Positions 7,286 to 37,176 of a stretch of 37,176 bases of DNA are shown here, one piece after another. The stretch's first letter is position 1; every line of letters starts with the position of its first letter. Under the pieces are notes generated by a model. The model was not told where the DNA came from. It saw only the letters and a program-made list of their open reading frames with translations, and did not search any database. The position numbers were made by a program, and so were the translations under genes. Source of the stretch: a virus; IMG/VR virus record IMGVR_UViG_3300050035_000593, positions 1 to 37,176 of that record. The stretch is one strand, 5' to 3'.

Positions 7286-7370
7286 CTTTACCTATAATAT
7301 GTATGGCATTCCAATCAAAAACACCTTGGGTATCTTTGACAGGGTTATCAAATTTGAGAATATTTTCCAT
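7272..7370 (-). CDS. Very small hypothetical protein
   Basis: A 32-residue open frame (MENILKFDNPVKDTQGVFDW...) that fills the gap between the lipoprotein gene and the deformylase gene. It overlaps the first by one base and the second by 14 bases. The exact fit suggests it is real, perhaps coupling translation into the deformylase gene. No function can be given. Confidence 0.45.
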   Translation of the reverse strand: MENILKFDNPVKDTQGVFDWNAIHIIGKDERI

Positions 7371-7672
7371 TATCTTTTTCTTCTGCTACCTCTGAATGAT
7401 ACACCACCACTGCCAAGCGCACCACCAACTCCCAAAAGGAAACCGAAGTTATACCAACCGCCATTGTTGTTGACAGCATAGACAACATATTTTTCCGGGT
7501 TTATTAGGCTACCAATAAAGGAGATTCCTGCAGTCATACCATGCCACAAGCCATTCCAAAAGCCATAAACTCTGGCACCTGCTACACAAGTATCAATATG
7601 TACAGGAACAGCACAACTGGCAAGCACTACAACGAGTGCAATAAACAATAAAATTTTGGTTGAATTTTTCAT
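7370..7672 (-). CDS. Small lipoprotein
   Basis: A 100-residue protein with a lipoprotein signal peptide: KILLFIALVVVLASC, cleavage before Cys20. The mature part has the pattern GFWNGLWHG, then VVYAVNNNGGWYNFGFLLG, which I recognise as a conserved family of small bacterial and phage lipoproteins of unknown role. The C-terminus is basic (RGSRRKR). It should sit in the periplasmic leaflet of a membrane. A phage lipoprotein can act in superinfection exclusion, but that is only a possibility. Confidence 0.75.
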   Translation of the reverse strand: MKNSTKILLFIALVVVLASCAVPVHIDTCVAGARVYGFWNGLWHGMTAGISFIGSLINPEKYVVYAVNNNGGWYNFGFLLGVGGALGSGGVSFRGSRRKR

Positions 7673-7676
7673 TGGT

Positions 7677-7910
7677 TTAGTAATAAAATGTGTGTCTTAA
7701 TTTGTAAACATTGTATAGGTCTTTAACCCGTTTTTCATTATTGAATTCGCCTTTGGTTGCAAGAAATGGTATTTCGCCAAGCGAACAAATCATGGCTTTT
7801 TCATCAAGAGTAAGTTCTTCCCACGACTTATCCCAAAAAGTTATGTCTTTTTCTTCTACTTGAAGAATTTCTTCATTGGTAATCGGATTAATCTTGCCAG
7901 TTGGTTTCAT
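7677..7910 (-). CDS. Small hypothetical protein
   Basis: A 77-residue soluble protein starting MKPTGKINPITNEEILQVE, with a C-terminal basic/aromatic tail (YKLRHTFYY). It is the first gene after the promoter at 7926-7956. No family recognised. Confidence 0.6.
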   Translation of the reverse strand: MKPTGKINPITNEEILQVEEKDITFWDKSWEELTLDEKAMICSLGEIPFLATKGEFNNEKRVKDLYNVYKLRHTFYY

Positions 7911-23157: not shown

Positions 23158-25269
23158 TTAACTAAAATTAGAATTCATATAATTTAACCAAAACATTCTT
23201 GCTTTTGCAGAAACAGCACTTCCAATTTTTTTGGAGTCGATGCCGTTGGTAACCATAGTATCACTTTCTTCTTTCACAACATCATTATATACCCATCGGA
23301 GATATTCACCCGTTGTTTTAGGCTCAATAGGTAGTCCCAATTCTTTCATTTTATCAATACCTTGTAATAACCGATTTTCGGTAACAGCATATTCAATAAA
23401 TGCTTTTAAGTTTTCAACTTCTTCAACATTAACTGTTGTAAGTGTTTTAACTTTGGAATTCTGATGTTTTTCGCCTTTTACCTTGAAAATATATCGTTCT
23501 TCACCATTAATATATTCCCACACAATACCTTCACCAACACCTTCAATTCCAAAATACTTAGCAACTGGACATTCTTTTTCAACTTCATTGGTTAATTCAA
23601 TTAATTTATTTTGTATTAATTCAGGAGAATTAAAATCAATATCAATTGAAAACTTAGAAAATTGCATAATGTTATATATCTGCTCTTCTTCAATTTTAAG
23701 ATGCGTAAAGTTTTTCATGTCTTGATATACATCATCAATCTTAACTGCAAATATTACAAACATCTTAGGTAATTGTGTAATAGCAACACTTTTCTGAATA
23801 CCCGAATTATGTACTAATGTATTGTTTGCAAAATAATTATGATTATCTTCAATTTCAATATCATATCTTACTCTATGCTCCCTTTTTAATGGTGTATAAT
23901 TTTCAATACTTTCAACATTTGCCTCAACCAATGAATTATCATAATCGTTTAAATAATGACTCCACCATGTAATCTTTTCAACACTTTGAAGTATTTTGGG
24001 GAGTTTATAATTAAATTCTTTTAAAATATATGGTGCTATTGTATATAAAAATGAAGCAGCACCTTCTACAGTAAATCTTATTTCTGTTCCCCTTTCAATA
24101 TTTTCATTTATCGTATTACAATAATATCCACGAGAATTAAACCACTTTTCAATTAACTTAACATTCTCTGTGCCAAATCCTTGACAATGCAATGAACACC
24201 GATATTGCCTACTTTTTCCATTGTGTAGCACAATTGACCCATCATCCATATACCAAGTAGCTAACGCTAATGGGCTTAACTTATTTAAATAATCAACCGT
24301 TACTTGTTTAGATTTACTATTATTTAAATGCAGTTCATCATATAAATCTTCAATTTCTGGAAATGCATTGCTGTGATGAATTCTCATATTACTACCGTAT
24401 CCACTAATTATATTTTGTGGAATTGAGAATATATTCTTTAAATTTTCCACAATAAAATCATTATAAAACTTTTGATTATCGTCAGAATGTGATATTTGTA
24501 TACTCCTTTTTTCTGCAAAACTTGCATCTCCCAATAAACTTCCCATTAAAAATTGTTTAACGTTAAACGTTAGTACTTTACCAGAAATCAAAACCTTATC
24601 ATTTATTTTAATTTCGTTTGCAAATTTTTCAATAATTAAATTATTTTCTTTTATAAATATTTTATGATTGGGTGTAACGATAAATCCTGTTGAGCGTCCG
24701 CCTCTTTTTCTTCTCTGAATATTAAGTTTCAACCAATTATCCGTCTCACCATTTTTAAACCAATTTTTTATTTTTTTTGGTTCCAATTTCCCTGTTTCAA
24801 AATTATATGAAAGTATTTCAACATCTAATTTACCGTTAACAATTTTTCCAATTGGCATCGATGTGTCATCAGATAATAAAATAGGTGTGCCATATGGAAA
24901 ACATCCACACCATTCTCCATAAATAGCACAAGATTCATTGAATTCGATGCCCTTAAAGAGTTTACGATAATCTTTGGTTAACATAGTTCTCATGAATCCG
25001 GCATTATCTTGTTCAAGACTCAGCACATTCTCCCTGGATTGAAATTCAAAATGATACTGCTCACCATCAACAAAATCAGATTGTTTGTATAACACAATTG
25101 CTGAGTTAGTACCATGCAATTTTACAGTACCTCTGAACGTAAATACTGGATATGGTGTGCTATGGCTATATTTTGCATCACCATTTTCATCCTTGCCCAT
25201 ATAATCACAATGAGACCTTACTTCTCTAATGACGTTTCTAAACTGTTCAATTTCTGTAAATTTTTTCAT
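23158..25269 (-). CDS. RNA ligase (T4 Rnl2-like) interrupted by an intein
   Basis: The chosen start (MKKFTEIEQFRNV, ATG at 25269) lies past the noncoding RNA and terminator; an earlier in-frame ATG (25305) is in the terminator loop and unlikely. Motif I is TVKLHGTNSA with the catalytic Lys; then FEFQSREN, and motif IIIa AIYGEWCG. At this point an intein is inserted, and the extein resumes SGIQKSVAI. Further motifs are EGVGEGIVWEY (motif IV-like) and YIFKVKGEKH (motif V-like). The enzyme joins RNA ends via Lys-AMP. The spliced protein would be about 337 residues, the Rnl2 size. Its neighbour is the structured RNA at 25290-25727. Confidence 0.88.
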   Translation of the reverse strand: MKKFTEIEQFRNVIREVRSHCDYMGKDENGDAKYSHSTPYPVFTFRGTVKLHGTNSAIVLYKQSDFVDGEQYHFEFQSRENVLSLEQDNAGFMRTMLTKDYRKLFKGIEFNESCAIYGEWCGCFPYGTPILLSDDTSMPIGKIVNGKLDVEILSYNFETGKLEPKKIKNWFKNGETDNWLKLNIQRRKRGGRSTGFIVTPNHKIFIKENNLIIEKFANEIKINDKVLISGKVLTFNVKQFLMGSLLGDASFAEKRSIQISHSDDNQKFYNDFIVENLKNIFSIPQNIISGYGSNMRIHHSNAFPEIEDLYDELHLNNSKSKQVTVDYLNKLSPLALATWYMDDGSIVLHNGKSRQYRCSLHCQGFGTENVKLIEKWFNSRGYYCNTINENIERGTEIRFTVEGAASFLYTIAPYILKEFNYKLPKILQSVEKITWWSHYLNDYDNSLVEANVESIENYTPLKREHRVRYDIEIEDNHNYFANNTLVHNSGIQKSVAITQLPKMFVIFAVKIDDVYQDMKNFTHLKIEEEQIYNIMQFSKFSIDIDFNSPELIQNKLIELTNEVEKECPVAKYFGIEGVGEGIVWEYINGEERYIFKVKGEKHQNSKVKTLTTVNVEEVENLKAFIEYAVTENRLLQGIDKMKELGLPIEPKTTGEYLRWVYNDVVKEESDTMVTNGIDSKKIGSAVSAKARMFWLNYMNSNFS
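23806..24903 (-). mobile_element. Intein with LAGLIDADG homing endonuclease
   Basis: 366 residues in frame inside the RNA ligase. The N-terminal splicing block starts CFPYGTPILL; block B is FIVTPNHKIF with the TxxH; endonuclease motifs are FLMGSLLGDAS and LATWYMDDGS; block F/G end in NYFANNTLVHN and the following extein residue is Ser. All residues needed for splicing (Cys1, TxxH, HN, Ser+1) are present, so it should be active. It is inserted in the nucleotidyltransferase motif IIIa region, the typical place for an intein: an invariant active-site motif. Confidence 0.9.
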
Positions 25270-25289
25270 ATTATTCTGCATTTTAAAAT

Positions 25290-25316
25290 AAAAAAACCAG
25301 TTCATTTATCCACTGG
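25290..25316 (-). terminator. Rho-independent terminator
   Basis: Minus strand: CCAGT, 10-base loop, ACTGG, then a run of seven T after one further T. The hairpin contains the ATG at 25305, which makes that ATG a poor start. It ends the noncoding RNA segment or attenuates transcription into the RNA ligase gene. Confidence 0.6.
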
Positions 25317-29932: not shown

Positions 29933-30796
29933 TTAATAATGCAAGAATCCTTTATCTGAATTACTAACTTTAACATTAAATATACCCAACCAATTAGCTA
30001 ACTGCGTGGGATACAGACTCTGTAGTACACCATTTTTTGTTACAGGAATAATACTTTCCTTAACTTGGTCCAAACAAGTAAACACTATCGTTTTCTTGGA
30101 GTCGGGATTATGATGCAAATCGCAACGTAGTGCATATTTCAATAAGTCATAATCCAATACTGACCTTCTAAAAATTCCTTGATATCCAGTATCAACATTG
30201 GTTTCATTTGGGTTTGGCGTGATATAGTTGATATCCATACCTTCGTTACTCATATAGCCATTACCGTGGCGTGTCTGATAGGCACGGGTGACATAATAAG
30301 TTTCGATGTTTCTATCAGCTAATCCGTTGTTTTTAATGAATTCCATTGCATTCCTGGACGTACAATAGCTTCTCGTAACATTTGGGAAGAACCCATACTC
30401 CATATCAAGCAAAATGCCTTGTCCACCCTCAAATATTAAGTTATCATATTTTTCAGATAGTCCAAATTGTTTAAAATTCTCTACAATATCATATCTTTCG
30501 ATGAACTGAGTACAGGCATCAACAAAATTATCGTAATGTTTTTGTCCGATTGCATTTAATGGTATAGTATAACCATAATAATTTAGAATGTTTTTGAGTT
30601 TTGCATCACGAATACTTGGAAACAATAAATCCCGAACATATAGATGATGAAATTCTTCATTTCTCTTAATGGTAGTACCAAATCCTACACCAACAGTGCA
30701 ACAACTTCCTATTGGTAGGAGTGACGATATACTCAATTCGCTTTTCAAAAACTTTAAATGGTCCGGCTTCATCGATATATCCAACACCGTTTTCAA
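29933..30796 (-). CDS. N-terminally truncated adenylosuccinate synthetase-like protein
   Basis: A 287-residue frame. After about 30 residues without similarity it enters PurA sequence: VGVGFGTTIKRN (GxGIG region), FEGGQGILLDMEYGFFPNVTRS (EGAQG...VTSS), YYVTRAYQTRHGNG, and GIFRRSVLDYDLLKYALRCD. The first ~120 residues of PurA, with the GDEGKG loop and catalytic Asp/His, are missing. Without them catalysis is not expected. The related phage enzyme PurZ makes the base Z, but nothing here shows that. The upstream gene ends out of frame in the same place, so a deletion fused the two. Confidence 0.65.
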   Translation of the reverse strand: MKTVLDISMKPDHLKFLKSELSISSLLPIGSCCTVGVGFGTTIKRNEEFHHLYVRDLLFPSIRDAKLKNILNYYGYTIPLNAIGQKHYDNFVDACTQFIERYDIVENFKQFGLSEKYDNLIFEGGQGILLDMEYGFFPNVTRSYCTSRNAMEFIKNNGLADRNIETYYVTRAYQTRHGNGYMSNEGMDINYITPNPNETNVDTGYQGIFRRSVLDYDLLKYALRCDLHHNPDSKKTIVFTCLDQVKESIIPVTKNGVLQSLYPTQLANWLGIFNVKVSNSDKGFLHY

Positions 30797-31911: not shown

Positions 31912-31958
31912 ATAAAAAATGAGTGAGATGACATAGTTATACGTCAAACATCACTCAT
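31912..31958 (-). terminator. Terminator with a -10-like string in its loop
   Basis: Minus strand: ATGAGTGA ... TCACTCAT, eight pairs or an extended bulged stem (with inner TGAC/GTCA), followed by TTTTTTATT. It ends the run from the OmpA and membrane protein genes. The loop contains ACGTATAAC, the -10 half of the phage promoter, without a TGTAAC partner at the right distance. Confidence 0.7.
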
Positions 31959-31983
31959 TTCTTGAAAACAAAATTTTTTGTCT

Positions 31984-32169
31984 TTAAACGTGTACGCCTC
32001 CCAAATAAGCGAATACTCCGAATACTTTAAGTAGCCATAATACAACAGCAATAATTGCTACAATATTAAGCACTTTTTTTATTTTACCATCCATAGGGAT
32101 GTATGTGTTAACAAGCCATAGGAGAACACCTATAACTATTAATACGATTAAAATTGTAATTAATGGCAT
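31984..32169 (-). CDS. Thivi_2564-like small membrane protein
   Basis: A 61-residue protein: a first hydrophobic segment (MPLITILIVLIVIGVLLWLV), the conserved loop NTYIPMDGKIKKVLN, and a second segment (IVAIIAVVLWLLKVFGV). This matches the short Thivi_2564-type membrane proteins, found in bacteria and phages and of unknown function. It is probably co-transcribed with the OmpA gene. Confidence 0.75.
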   Translation of the reverse strand: MPLITILIVLIVIGVLLWLVNTYIPMDGKIKKVLNIVAIIAVVLWLLKVFGVFAYLGGVHV

Positions 32170-32199: not shown

Positions 32200-33564
32200 T
32201 TATTTGCTGACAATAGCAACAACAATGAGATTAGACCTGCGATTTAAAGCATAGTTTGTTTCATTGATTTTGCCGTCATTATTATTATCAAATATTATTG
32301 TTTTACCAAGTCCTTTAGAATTAATACGTGATAGAGCAATGCCCTTGCTAATTAAATAATGAACAACTGCATCACCACGTCTTATTGAAAGACTCATATT
32401 ATACATGTCACTTCCTCTTTCATCTGCATACGATTTAATTTGAATGCCAATTGTTGAATCACGCTTTAAGTCAATAATTAATGCATCAAGATTTTTAATT
32501 GTTTCATTATCAAGATTAGATTCATCAAATTTAAAATATAATGAATAAGCAGCAACAATATTAACAGGTACGTCAACCGTTACTACTGGTTTAGGTACAG
32601 CAACAACCACAGGTTCAGGTGCTACTACAGGTTTTGGTACTACAACAGGTGCAACCGGGACTACTACCACAGGTATTATTATTACCACAGGTGGTTTTGG
32701 CTTCGGAGCAACTTTCACTTGTCCAAATTTCAGTATTGCACCAACTCTAAATGTGGTTAAATTCCATGTTTCAATTGAACGTGGGTCTTGACCAAAATAT
32801 GGATGAAAATCTACAAATGGTGATAGCACAACTTGTTTATAGGTTTTACCTACTTCAGCATTACCTTTAGCTTTATTTGAAAGTAATATGTCATAACCAG
32901 CACCAATGTGCATGGAAATTACGACACTGTGCATTTTAGTAAAATCACCCTTTAACTCAGGGTCTGCAGGTATTAAACCATCTGCACTCATACCTTTATT
33001 ATAAGTAAATGATTTACCTAAATTGAACGCTAAACGTGGACCACCATATAGATAGAAATTACCTTTGAATGGTGCAACACGTAAACTTGGTTCAATTGTT
33101 AAATAGCTAAGATTGGTTTTTAAATCTGCAGGACAATTACATGGAGTTGTTACTTCATCAAATTTTCCTTTACGACTATCATAACCTATTTGTAACATAC
33201 CGCCAAAAATCTTTTCAGGATTCTGATATATAATGGTAGGTGTAACATATAATCCCAATCCGCTACCATCATGAAAAGCGGGATATGAGAATAAATCCGT
33301 ATTTACGTCTTGTGTTGAGCCACGATAGAAATTAAAATTTCCACCAACTGCTGCACCAAACCACCATGATGGTATAGTATCTTTTCTTGTTAATGAGGTA
33401 TCTGCATATATTTGAGTTTTTGCTCTTGCAGTTCCCATTCTTGAGTCATCTTTGTTTTTGTTTATCTGGCTCTCTTGTGCTTGAAGACCAACACCAATTA
33501 GTATCAAAACACTTAATATAAATGTTTTGATGCCAAATGTGTTCTTTCTGATTTTTGCTTTCAT
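32200..33564 (-). CDS. OmpA-family outer membrane protein
   Basis: A 454-residue protein with a signal peptide (residues 1 to about 29, FILSVLILIGVGLQAQ), an N-terminal beta-barrel (about 65-285, ending FRVGAILKFGQ), a Val/Pro/Lys-rich linker (290-335), and a C-terminal OmpA domain: LYFKFDESNL, IQIKSYADERGSDMYNMSLS, RRGDAVVHYLISKGI and NRRSNLIV. The OmpA domain binds peptidoglycan. The layout is that of a Bacteroidota cell-surface protein and is unusual in a phage. It may change the host surface during infection or be a captured host gene. Confidence 0.85.
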   Translation of the reverse strand: MKAKIRKNTFGIKTFILSVLILIGVGLQAQESQINKNKDDSRMGTARAKTQIYADTSLTRKDTIPSWWFGAAVGGNFNFYRGSTQDVNTDLFSYPAFHDGSGLGLYVTPTIIYQNPEKIFGGMLQIGYDSRKGKFDEVTTPCNCPADLKTNLSYLTIEPSLRVAPFKGNFYLYGGPRLAFNLGKSFTYNKGMSADGLIPADPELKGDFTKMHSVVISMHIGAGYDILLSNKAKGNAEVGKTYKQVVLSPFVDFHPYFGQDPRSIETWNLTTFRVGAILKFGQVKVAPKPKPPVVIIIPVVVVPVAPVVVPKPVVAPEPVVVAVPKPVVTVDVPVNIVAAYSLYFKFDESNLDNETIKNLDALIIDLKRDSTIGIQIKSYADERGSDMYNMSLSIRRGDAVVHYLISKGIALSRINSKGLGKTIIFDNNNDGKINETNYALNRRSNLIVVAIVSK

Positions 33565-33591
33565 GTTTATATTTATTATTTTTCTTTATAA

Positions 33592-34848
33592 TTATGGTTT
33601 GATAATAGTTGATGCGTTCAGAGTTACTGCTGTTTGAGCAAGTAATCTACCAGTAACGTGACCACCAGTATTTACTGAAATTAATGTTTTACATAAGATA
33701 TTTCCTTGGAAATTAACGTTTGTTCCTAATACTGCACCCGAACCAGCAACTACCCAAAAGATATTTTTAGCCTGTGCGCCATTCTGTAATGTAATAATTG
33801 CACTATTTGCTACTGTTAAATTTTGTGCTATTTGGAATATAAATGTCGCACAATTGTCACCGCCACCGTCCAATACAATACCATTTGTTATTGAAACGCC
33901 AGAACTCCATTTCCAAATACCTGCAGTTAATGTTTGACCATTAAGATTACCTGCCATGAATTCATTTGTAGGTGCTGGAACAACTAAGCCATTTGCTGTG
34001 GTATATGCTGTATGCATATCGCCACTTGTTGTAACCATATTAGCAGGTGAAGGTACTGCATAATCAGGTGCATATACTTTACCAACAACAAGACTTGATG
34101 TTGAGAATGCACTGCCTGCAGGAAGAATTAATCCAAATCCTGTTATTGCTGTTGATGTTACGGGATTTACACCGATATCACCAGTAATTAAGGTAACGCC
34201 AGTAGTTGAAATTCCAGATTCTGCAAATATTGCAAAATTGCCAGATAATCCCAAATTTACGACTGTAGGACAAACAACTACAATTGGGGTAAAATTAGCA
34301 ACCAAATTTTTGTTGGCTGTTAATGTAAAGGTATAAATCGAATTAGTTGAAACTACAAGTGCTCCATCAGTCCAATTAGTAAATGTGTAGCCTGCATTTG
34401 CTACTGCAGTAACAGTTACCGATGTACTTGGTGCAAAAGAACCGCTACCAAGAGTAGTTCCACCTGCAAGAGGATTTGATGTTGTTATTAAATTGAAATT
34501 TCCTGGTATTACTGGAGTAAAATTAGCAACCAATACTGTGTTTCCTACTAATGGAAACGTATAGCTTGAATTTGTTGAAACAATTACTGCTCCATTTGTC
34601 CAATTAGTAAATGTGTAAGCCAAACTTGGTGTCGCACCTACTGTTATGATGCTATCTTTAGCAAATGTTCCTGCTCCGATAGTTGTACCACCCGCAAGAG
34701 GATTTGACGATAATGCTACCGTAAATTCTATTTTTGGTTGAGGGCATATTCCGACAAGTTCTACGAAATTGTCTTTTTTGCATGTGATTAAAACAAGCAT
34801 TGCAATGAATATCGATGCAAAGATTGCCAATAATTTTTTTGTTTTCAT
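33592..34848 (-). CDS. Lipoprotein with InlB-like repeats and ice-binding-like (DUF3494) domain
   Basis: The chosen start (MKTKKLLAIFASIF) gives 418 residues; an ATG 7 codons upstream is also possible. The lipobox LVLITC ends the signal peptide. Two tandem repeats follow (about 36-115 and 118-190), each with NPLAGGTTxGxGxF, YTFTNWTxGAxVVSTN, and LVANFTP: the InlB B-repeat/SprB-type repeat. The C-terminal half (from LGLSGNFAIFAESGIS, with GDIGVNPVTS, LDGGGDNCATFIFQ, IFWVVAGSGAVLGTN) is DUF3494, an ice-binding or adhesin-like beta-helix. It should be surface-exposed. The two genes lie 27 bases apart. Confidence 0.85.
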   Translation of the reverse strand: MKTKKLLAIFASIFIAMLVLITCKKDNFVELVGICPQPKIEFTVALSSNPLAGGTTIGAGTFAKDSIITVGATPSLAYTFTNWTNGAVIVSTNSSYTFPLVGNTVLVANFTPVIPGNFNLITTSNPLAGGTTLGSGSFAPSTSVTVTAVANAGYTFTNWTDGALVVSTNSIYTFTLTANKNLVANFTPIVVVCPTVVNLGLSGNFAIFAESGISTTGVTLITGDIGVNPVTSTAITGFGLILPAGSAFSTSSLVVGKVYAPDYAVPSPANMVTTSGDMHTAYTTANGLVVPAPTNEFMAGNLNGQTLTAGIWKWSSGVSITNGIVLDGGGDNCATFIFQIAQNLTVANSAIITLQNGAQAKNIFWVVAGSGAVLGTNVNFQGNILCKTLISVNTGGHVTGRLLAQTAVTLNASTIIKP

Positions 34849-34869
34849 TTTATTACTATTATTATTCAT

Positions 34870-35171
34870 TATTTCTTATATTATAGTGTACTTTGTCAAA
34901 CTAAATGATTAAATGATTGTGTACTTCATATATCATAAATACTAAAATAACTTAATAAAAACATACATAGTTCTGGAAAAGGGTTACATAATTCCTATAT
35001 TTGAATTTAAATATTCTTTATTAATGAGTATTGTAAATTAAAAAACAATTCGTATGTTTGCGATGAATATTTTTGTTTCATATATTATAATGGTATAAAA
35101 TGGCGATAATTGAAAAATATGCATACTACACACGATAAATTAACTTTATGCATAAAATAATCGATAATAAT
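34870..35171. other. Divergent intergenic region
   Basis: About 300 bases without a gene, separating the minus-strand and plus-strand blocks. It is very AT-rich. On the plus strand it holds a possible host-type promoter (35031-35060), then the phage element. On the minus strand I see only a poor version of the phage element. No hairpin or long repeat stands out. Confidence 0.5.
35031..35060 (+). promoter_or_regulatory. Host-type (Bacteroidota) promoter candidate
   Basis: TTG, 19 bases, TATGTTTG, one base short of the Bacteroidota consensus. It points towards the plus-strand operon, 175 bases upstream of the first ATG. If real it could start transcription before the phage element (35172-35202) is active. 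Confidence 0.3.
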
Positions 35172-35234: not shown

Positions 35235-35348
35235 ATGGACGAAGGATATTGGGTAATTATAGGATTTGTGGCATTTATTGCAATCGTTTCTACCATATTG
35301 GTGCTGAACGTCAATGGTTTTTTTGATAGATTTAAAAAGAAAAAATAA
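35235..35348 (+). CDS. Small single-pass membrane protein
   Basis: A 37-residue protein, MDEGYWVIIGFVAFIAIVS followed by TILVLNVNGFFDRFKKKK: an acidic N-terminus, one hydrophobic helix and a basic C-terminus, so the tail should be cytoplasmic. It is the first gene after the plus-strand promoter. No family recognised. Confidence 0.6.
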   Translation: MDEGYWVIIGFVAFIAIVSTILVLNVNGFFDRFKKKK

Positions 35349-35349
35349 T

Positions 35350-35952
35350 GTGAAAAAAGAAATGCCCGATTTTAAAATTATTGAAGCATACGCTATGCGC
35401 TGTTATAATGAAGCCAATTGTAATTATGGTGGTAGAAATTATTACCTACATATTACTATGGTATTGGATAACGTTAAAAAACATCAAATGATTTTCAAAA
35501 ATCCCCAAGATGCACTTTATACTATGGGTGCTGCGCATACACATGACCTTATGGAAGATGCAAGGCAGACCTACAATAATATTTGTGATGTATGCGGTAC
35601 TGATATTGCCGATATTACATTAAAAGTTACTGATGTTGATGCAGAAAATCGTATGATGAAGCATTTGCTTACTATGGGTAAAACAGTCAGAGACCCACGT
35701 GCCATCATACTTAAAATGTGTGATATTCTTGCCAATACAACTTTTAGTAAAGAAACTGGTAGTACCGATGGTTGTGGTTATTCTGTGACGATGATAATTC
35801 CGATAACTGATTGTATTGGTAATAAACTCTATGTGTCATTACAGGAATATCGTCAAACATCTGTTACATATACAACGATTCGTGGAGTTCCGTGTGCTCC
35901 ATATACTGTTTGTGTAAATTATTGTAGAACATGGATACCAAATTGTCAGTAA
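35350..35952 (+). CDS. HD-domain protein with unusual Cys/Tyr-rich tail
   Basis: Start GTG at 35350 or, more cautiously, ATG at 35362 (MPDFKIIEAYAMRCYNEA). The HD layout is present: YLHITMVLDNV, AAHTHDLMEDARQTYNNI (HD pair) and ILKMCDILANTTFSKETGS (second Asp). It resembles the hydrolase domain of RelA/SpoT-type or nucleotide phosphohydrolases. The family usually goes on with a helix after 'SKETGS'; here a Cys/Tyr/Thr-rich, beta-like stretch follows to the end (about 60 residues with six Cys). A frameshift or recombination in the 3' part is possible. Confidence 0.65.
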   Translation: MKKEMPDFKIIEAYAMRCYNEANCNYGGRNYYLHITMVLDNVKKHQMIFKNPQDALYTMGAAHTHDLMEDARQTYNNICDVCGTDIADITLKVTDVDAENRMMKHLLTMGKTVRDPRAIILKMCDILANTTFSKETGSTDGCGYSVTMIIPITDCIGNKLYVSLQEYRQTSVTYTTIRGVPCAPYTVCVNYCRTWIPNCQ

Positions 35953-36143: not shown

Positions 36144-37176
36144 ATGAAACTAATCAGGTCAACCAAATGTAGTTTGAAGTTCAGCACAAAGAAAAAAGTG
36201 TTGGAATTAACAACCATTCTCAATGAATACGGAAAGGTCGTTAACATCTTCATTCAGTACTTTTGGTTAAATCCTGATAAAGTCAGTAAAGTCCTTTTAT
36301 TAAAGGATATTGTTGATATTCCAGAGACATGGTTATCTGCACGATTAAGGAAGGTCGCAGCAAGGGAAGCCATTGATATGGTAACAGCGACAAAAGCAAG
36401 GTGGAAAGACAAACCAGACAAAATGGTTATGCCAGTTCACAAAGGTAATCGTATGTATGTTAGTTGTACTATTGCTGACTTAGTATCCACAAAGAACAAC
36501 GGTTATAAATCCGAAGGAAGCAGACTCTTCGATGCTTGGTTGCACATAGCAAGTGTCGGTAATAAAATGATAATGGACTTGCCGATTAAATACCATAAAC
36601 ATTTCAACAAATATAACAACATCGGTAAGAGATTGAACTCGTATATTATCACGAAGAATTATGTTCAGTTCAGTTTTGAAATTATAACTGAGACAAAGAA
36701 AGAAGGTTTGAAGTGTATTGGTATCGACACAGGTATAAACGCTTTGGCGAGTCTTAATAACGGAAATCAATACGGCAAGGATATCAAAGGTTGTATTGAG
36801 AGAGTAAAAAGATGTAAGCAGAAGTCCAAAGGTTATTATGTTGCTAAGAGAGCATTAAAACAAAGAATTGACGAAACAGCAAAAGAAATATTAGTGAAAG
36901 AAAACCCAGATTTGATTGTTGTTGAACAACTGAAAAATATGGGATACAAAACAAAACTCAAAGCACGATTGAGTAAAACTATTCGTGCTTCGATTGGTAC
37001 TTGGAATTGGAAGTATTGGTTAAAGCGACTTGAAATGCAGTGCGAATTAAACCGTGTTTCGTTCAGAACTGTTAGTCCTTATTATACCAGTACAACCTGT
37101 CCAGTATGTGGTCAAACCAATCGGGGAAATCGAAATGGAGAAAAGTTCTTGTGTCTCAATTGTGGTCACGGAGACA
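36144..37176 (+). CDS. tnpB: TnpB-like RuvC nuclease (IS200/IS605 family), cut by window edge
   Basis: 344 residues are visible and the frame is open at the edge. RuvC motif I IGIDTGINALASL (Asp195), motif II LIVVEQLKNM (Glu261), the zinc finger TSTTCPVCG ... FLCLNCGHGD (four Cys), and motif III starting at the last visible Asp344 are all in order. TnpB proteins are RNA-guided nucleases that keep IS200/IS605 elements in place and are ancestors of Cas12. It is encoded on the plus strand, 2 bases after a small gene. No TnpA is seen; the guide RNA and element end would lie beyond the window. Confidence 0.88.
   Translation, partial: MKLIRSTKCSLKFSTKKKVLELTTILNEYGKVVNIFIQYFWLNPDKVSKVLLLKDIVDIPETWLSARLRKVAAREAIDMVTATKARWKDKPDKMVMPVHKGNRMYVSCTIADLVSTKNNGYKSEGSRLFDAWLHIASVGNKMIMDLPIKYHKHFNKYNNIGKRLNSYIITKNYVQFSFEIITETKKEGLKCIGIDTGINALASLNNGNQYGKDIKGCIERVKRCKQKSKGYYVAKRALKQRIDETAKEILVKENPDLIVVEQLKNMGYKTKLKARLSKTIRASIGTWNWKYWLKRLEMQCELNRVSFRTVSPYYTSTTCPVCGQTNRGNRNGEKFLCLNCGHGD

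Follow-up and report, generated by a model that had tools for sequence, protein, structure and literature searches.

A bacterial DUF3494 lipoprotein and outer-membrane barrel operon, with a bacterial-type control region, carried by related phages

Results

A three-gene unit on the minus strand

The window (the whole stretch of DNA analysed), a linear virus record from IMG/VR with 37176 bases, contains phage replication and RNA-repair genes and, like most of the phage records used for comparison, is a fragment. The open reading frames give the following order, all on the minus strand: a gene for a DUF3494 (ice-binding-like) lipoprotein of 425 residues (33592..34869), a gene for an outer-membrane protein (OMP) of 454 residues (32200..33564) and a gene for a 61-residue, two-helix membrane protein of the Thivi_2564 family (31984..32169), which in a family search matched NF041949 at 76.5 bits against a cut-off of 33. 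An earlier note had described the first two as a lipoprotein with InlB-like repeats and DUF3494 and as an OmpA protein, and Pfam matches confirmed both as real genes. That note stopped at the pair; it missed that bacteria have the pair as an operon and share its control region, and it left out the third gene. As the 61-residue gene lies 3' of the OMP gene, with a spacing of 30 bp, the unit comprises three genes rather than two.

Folding gave an intrinsic-terminator-like hairpin followed by a T run 3' of the third gene (31914..31963, minus strand; -23.4 kcal/mol, z -4.4), with similar hairpins in the related loci L221, L002 and L004. Hence, the terminator said to set the pair apart exists as a strong hairpin, but it sits after the 61-residue gene. 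A terminator consensus scan returned 5 matches with 3.0 expected, the real hairpin having come from folding, and a sigma-70 consensus scan gave promoters not above chance. An Rfam search of the 31.5-36.5 kb region found no match, and an NCBIfam search with the small phage genes gave sub-threshold matches or none. On the far side of the control region, neighbourhood comparison showed a divergent, conserved HD-domain-like gene (35314..35952, plus strand), which belongs to the context and lies outside the unit.

The lipoprotein and its barrel partner

The lipoprotein contains PF11999 (3e-66; 223.5 bits, curated cut-off 28.7) and two PF18998 InlB B-repeats. Its model (pLDDT 81.5) matched crystal structures named ice-binding proteins at 54-55% identity and TM-scores of 0.87-0.88 by target length, the best Foldseek match being 9li0 (E 1e-20, TM 0.87 by target length, 55% identity). 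Domain score and known fold both place the protein in the DUF3494/Ice_binding (PF11999) family. The gene end given in the earlier note, 34848, corresponds to an internal start, MKTKKLL, which is probably the true start because the relatives align from MKTKKLL onward. Inspection by eye and a hydropathy screen indicated a lipobox-like sequence (..LVLITC, then KKDN).

The OMP begins with a Sec-type signal peptide (by eye and hydropathy screen) and has both a PF13568 barrel (1.6e-8) and a PF00691 OmpA domain (1.7e-14), each over the Pfam cut-off. Its model, of moderate confidence (pLDDT 63), shows eight long strands and a C-terminal OmpA-like domain, joined by a Pro/Val linker at about residues 289-342 that was modelled with low confidence. 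Barrel plus C-terminal OmpA domain make this an OmpA-type protein. Residues D381 and R396 are invariant in all six viral OMP sequences; we take them to be the equivalents of the peptidoglycan-binding Asp and Arg of E. coli OmpA.

The unit recurs in related viral contigs

In the viral collection, 9 and 4 loci came from two protein searches, and 7 from each of two alignment searches. The contigs compared were G001 (48.6 kb), G002 (69 kb), G003 (34 kb), G004 (218 kb), G005, G006, G007 and G010 (299 kb). PF11999 was present in nine of ten searched viral records (G001-G009) and absent from G010. All three genes are found in the window and in G001 through G006, and they stand in the same order in the window, G001, G002, G003 and G004; the 61-residue gene was directly 3' of the OMP gene in five of five aligned phages. 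G005 and G006 are probably near-copies, since their identities to the window equal those of G004 and G003, and they were not counted as independent. G007 has the pair only, its DUF3494 gene being cut at the contig end. Thus, the conservation in relatives that the earlier note had proposed to look for holds for the whole triad. The same note had raised the possibility that the segment is host DNA. As the window is a virus record with phage genes, and other viral contigs contain the pair as well, the pair is neither a chance occurrence nor stray host DNA.

The flanks on both sides, with HD-type and HAD genes, are common to G001, G003, G004 and G010 and less so to G002; an R2K gene is among the shared neighbours in G001, G003 and G004. 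G004, a contractile-tailed phage, encodes tail-sheath and baseplate-wedge proteins. It has a second DUF3494 gene (L005 12846-13580) between the OMP gene and the 61-residue gene, which falls in a different bacterial clade of the tree (97/97) and is taken to be a separate acquisition. G001 and G002 additionally have a small lipoprotein gene and a small gene that we call KAMDK. G008 and G009 encode more distant DUF3494 proteins without the pair. Two DUF3494-domain proteins from two other viral contigs, L009 9386-10645 and L010 9563-10690, have no obvious signal peptide and are perhaps structural. In a separate phage collection we found no DUF3494 match and only a C-terminal OmpA match, in an unannotated 1.5-kb record.

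Two relatives retain little or nothing of the pair. G010 has a DUF3494 gene cut back to ~76 N-terminal residues and has lost the OMP gene, with the upstream repeat described below and the 61-residue gene retained; in L221 (a 70.6-kb contig; 7343-7682) the control region leads straight into the 61-residue gene. These losses argue that the pair is dispensable.

Among the phages, identity over the DUF3494 domain is 90-92% (dS 0.5-1.1, dN 0.05-0.08, dN/dS about 0.1). This domain is the slowest-evolving part of the pair, the identities of the stalk, barrel and OmpA parts being 52-76%, 63-83% and 54-76%. Such a frozen head suggests a fixed ligand (ice, a glycan or a surface) more than a receptor arms race. 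The dS values of neighbouring genes are mostly higher, many near saturation; given that the pair lies below most of its neighbours, it may have spread between phages after these had diverged, or its codon use may be constrained.

The pair is a captured Bacteroidota operon

A genome scan gave 61 loci with matches, and by blastp an OMP gene stood directly after the DUF3494 gene in 14 of them (L015-L025, L027, L028 and L031). L016 has this arrangement twice, L026 and L040 had weaker OmpA-domain matches only, and G012 has a tandem array of three pairs. Among 395 Bacteroidia genomes PF11999 occurs in 65 and the barrel in 16, with 14 strong (E<1e-50) and 2 marginal matches (E 5e-4 and 8e-4). When the two tables were compared over these genomes, every one of the 14 strong barrels lay directly 3' of a PF11999 match on the same strand. 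The DUF3494-barrel pair is a strict operon in Bacteroidota, and the viral pair has its arrangement, with the DUF3494 gene directly before the barrel gene on the same strand. We know of no name for this operon.

In a barrel tree of 35 rows (29 bacterial) the six viral sequences form one clade (100/99) within the bacterial ones. In a DUF3494 tree of 63 rows the five viral domains likewise form one clade (100/99), sister to the bacterial G150 plus G181 (100/99); the barrel tree did not resolve the viral sister group. Both genes were therefore captured from bacteria, which fits the earlier note, where they were described as phage-borne and as resembling host surface proteins. That note had also named an ancient, virion-linked phage clade as the contrary outcome. 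The viral copies do form a single clade, but it is nested in bacteria and its members have secretion signals.

Phage and bacterial operons are alike in gene order, DUF3494 head, InlB repeats, barrel and the spacing of operator and promoter box (below). They differ in that the viral OMPs are shorter (401-454 residues versus about 640-710 for the bacterial partners), with the Pro/Val linker in place of the bacterial middle region, and in that the phages usually have fewer stalk repeats and no AraC gene was found in the phage DNA searched. As the bacterial partner OMPs resemble the phage OMP in the barrel only, and the phage OmpA domain is nearer to other OmpA proteins, the phage OMP may be a chimera.

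A tandem repeat and promoter box shared with bacteria

Upstream of the unit in the window, G001, G003, G004 and G010 is a tandem repeat, GAATTATGTAAC-N9-GAATTATGTAAC, with a period of 21 bp. In the window the putative operator reads GAATTATGTAAC-N9-GAACTATGTATG (34962..34994, minus strand) and matches 21 of 24 consensus positions. G001, G003 and G004 score 22, 22 and 23, and for each of these four operators 0 of 200 shuffles was as good; G010 (23) and L221 (21) were scored without a shuffle comparison. G002 has the genes but a poor operator (17/24; 7 of 200 shuffles as good). No phage of the set has a weaker second half of the repeat than the window, whose repeat escaped the stricter 37-bp pattern even with 3 mismatches allowed. 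A -7-box-like element, TATTTATG, follows 21-28 bp after the window operator (34934..34941, minus strand), in the position of the bacterial box that ends in TTTG.

The same repeat precedes bacterial operons at the same distance from a promoter box. Operator scores of at least 18 were found for 19 of 27 distinct bacterial promoters, and 17 of these have a TTTG whose end lies 28 or 29 bp downstream of the operator, against a shuffle rate of 1.8%. Three of the eight promoters scoring below 18, some of which have truncated upstream DNA, also have TTTG at 28-29. The TTTG fits the Bacteroidota -7 box, TAnnTTTG. All six operator-bearing phages share this layout, with TATTTATR at 20-27 or 21-28 bp after the operator, and G002 has none. 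As the phages have TATR where the bacteria have TTTG, the phage promoter may have been re-tuned.

A repeat scan of the whole viral collection (2.9 million contigs) gave six stretches, in G010, G004, G001, G005, G003 and L221. Five are in contigs already known to have the pair or its remnant, and L221 is a further relative; the stricter exact form of the repeat was found in G010 alone. Single half-sites at 2 mismatches occur in the window no more often than expected by chance, which leaves the tandem form as the one that counts. A role of the repeat as a general phage promoter was rejected, as the scanned DNA of each phage has one strong copy, and a LytTR-type site was dropped after inspection by eye. 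AraC-type promoters have tandem half-sites about 21 bp apart adjoining the promoter, and that is the layout found here.

Bacterial sites and an AraC family

With up to 2 mismatches the 37-bp site pattern matched 42 of 395 genomes, the reversed control giving 1 match; with up to 3 it was present in 12 of 13 chosen records (control, 1 match), and five genomes had 20, 18, 13, 11 and 9 sites. Operator genomes were enriched among those with PF11999 (24/65 versus 18/330, p 1e-10). Thirty loci, 27 bacterial and 3 phage, were examined for downstream genes, and 28 had an open frame downstream of the site. The proteins encoded, assigned mostly by eye, were DUF3494, outer-membrane, CsbD-like, ferritin-like, YtxH-like and permease-like proteins, a sensor kinase and AraC. 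In L201 two genes follow the site: first a homologue of phage KAMDK (44-46%), then a Thivi_2564 gene 64% identical to that of the window. Given this order, the phage genes appear to stem from more than one unit of a single regulon.

An AraC-family gene, recognized by sequence motif, was among up to three upstream genes at 11 loci, two of them from the same genome, and all five AraC-type proteins scanned matched PF12833/PF00165. Among the matches listed, the family is encoded in 204 of 395 genomes overall, in 36 of the 42 site genomes (p 2e-6) and in all 14 pair genomes, and site and AraC gene lie within 500 bp in at least 9 genomes. Six of the 42 operator genomes have no AraC match, including G236 with its 20 sites (up to 3 mismatches allowed). 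The link between family and site, as read from the genomes, is well supported but statistical, consisting of co-occurrence and adjacency. Tblastn found no AraC protein in the window, the whole G004 contig, G002 or the parts of G001, G003 and G010 searched. The bacterial loci L187-L216 and L171-L185 make up a Bacteroidota regulon, marked by the tandem GAATTATGTAAC site at a constant distance from a TTTG box; it includes surface and stress-type genes, together with a single AraC family. In the open-access literature searched we found no description of such a tandem-GAATTATGTAAC regulon and no paper combining ice-binding, AraC and Bacteroidetes.

Discussion

We consider it probable that the phages captured a host surface and stress unit together with its control region, and that the host regulator runs it during infection. 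An ancestor of large Bacteroidota-type phages would have acquired the operon of DUF3494 lipoprotein and dedicated OmpA-type barrel with its control region, and the Thivi_2564 gene would have come with the pair or beside it. What happens then we infer as follows, including binding, expression in infection, surface location and benefit. On infection an AraC-family regulator of the host, not encoded by the phage, would bind the 21-bp direct repeat by the promoter and switch on all three genes. The lipoprotein would reach the outer membrane and show its DUF3494 head on short InlB-type stalks, with the barrel partner beside it and the OmpA domain holding that partner to the cell wall. The infected cell would thereby keep a host-type stress and surface programme (envelope anchoring, adhesion, ice or surface binding) while the phage runs. 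As most members keep the bacterial on-switch, the host stress regulator may decide when the genes are used. A bolder statement, to which we give even weight for and against, is that the lineage is tied into an undescribed Bacteroidota stress and surface regulon, keeping operator and three genes without the regulator, so that the host stress state gates the phage operon, with operator and 61-residue gene as the retained core and the pair as swappable cargo.

Two other readings concern what the surface proteins do. The DUF3494 domain might bind ice and shield the infected cell, as its close match to structures named ice-binding proteins (54-55% identity, TM-score 0.87-0.88) would allow, and a cryoprotective role has been proposed for PF11999 genes of Arctic phages (PMC11515562, in the part available to us). 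We regard this as a possible but unlikely explanation, as PF11999 is found in 65 of 395 Bacteroidia genomes with no stated cold habitat, and membrane anchoring plus a cell-wall-binding partner suggests adhesion. T5 Llp is an exclusion-type phage lipoprotein, and the displayed lipoprotein and barrel could be likened to it and to TP-J34 Ltp, masking receptors or blocking adsorption or DNA entry of competing phages. The surface-type proteins, the dispensable pair and the likely lipoprotein suit such superinfection exclusion, and surface-exposed exclusion lipoproteins are known in phages (PMC3952083). However, the nearly frozen head does not look like the product of a receptor arms race, the barrel partner is a dedicated bacterial one and no known receptor, and control by a host regulon would be odd for such a design; we thus think exclusion distinctly unlikely.

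Three further readings concern the locus itself. The repeat could be a decoy that titrates the host regulator, the genes being passengers, for it outlives the pair in G010 and L221. Yet each phage has a single strong copy in what was scanned of its DNA, the 61-residue gene and promoter box are kept with the repeat in both relatives (as is the terminator in L221) and the proteins are under strong purifying selection, which makes a decoy improbable. That the DUF3494 protein decorates the particle might be argued from the two viral DUF3494 proteins that have no obvious signal peptide. A decorating protein would have no secretion signal, but here hydropathy and inspection by eye gave a signal peptide and a lipobox; the barrel partner, the bacterial operon origin and the absence of recognized adjoining structural genes in the neighbourhoods read also make a virion component very improbable. 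Finally, the bacterial descent of the genes is what host DNA or a chimeric assembly would give, but independent contigs, diverged in sequence, have the triad at one and the same position among phage genes, and one of them, of 218 kb, encodes tail sheath and baseplate proteins; we give this reading almost no credence.

Captured host genes under a retained host switch have a parallel in cyanophages, in which pstS and other phage genes are under host PHO boxes. There too the phage has a copy of a host gene with a host-type operator; the regulator is left to the host, as we propose for the present phages. The cyanophage case concerns nutrient uptake and PhoB, whereas here surface and stress genes, an AraC-type site and a putative induction are involved. 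Phage DUF3494 genes are not new, as PF11999 auxiliary genes on phage genomes were reported from the Arctic (PMC11515562); in the part of that paper available to us the membrane partner, operon and operator go unmentioned. PF11999 has been classed as an adhesive domain, and fibrillar-adhesin-like proteins combine such Ice_binding heads with stalk domains much as the phage protein does (PMC8286594); those proteins are bacterial, and the portion seen mentions neither phage nor a barrel partner. No paper combining DUF3494 with OmpA, or with phage, was found in the open-access literature searched.

Phage surface genes are usually read singly, as exclusion factors. In this case sequence alone shows that a phage lineage took up and kept a host operon with its control region and, apparently, the site of its regulator, which offers a direct way to ask whether phages exploit host stress signalling. 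The finding also defines a partner for a common type of DUF3494 adhesin, exposes a Bacteroidota regulon with its likely regulator and provides, in the repeat, a search handle for phage-host links.

Other genes of the window

The window has an Rnl2-like RNA ligase gene split by an intein with a LAGLIDADG endonuclease (23158-25305, minus strand); the G004 relative (L005 18489-19493) has no intein. A partial adenylosuccinate-synthetase-like gene (29933-30796, minus strand) matches phrog_1211, a family named for modified-purine synthesis. A TnpB-like transposon nuclease gene (36144-37176, plus strand), recognized by eye from a zinc-finger-like end, is cut at the contig end, and L081 contains genes similar to it.
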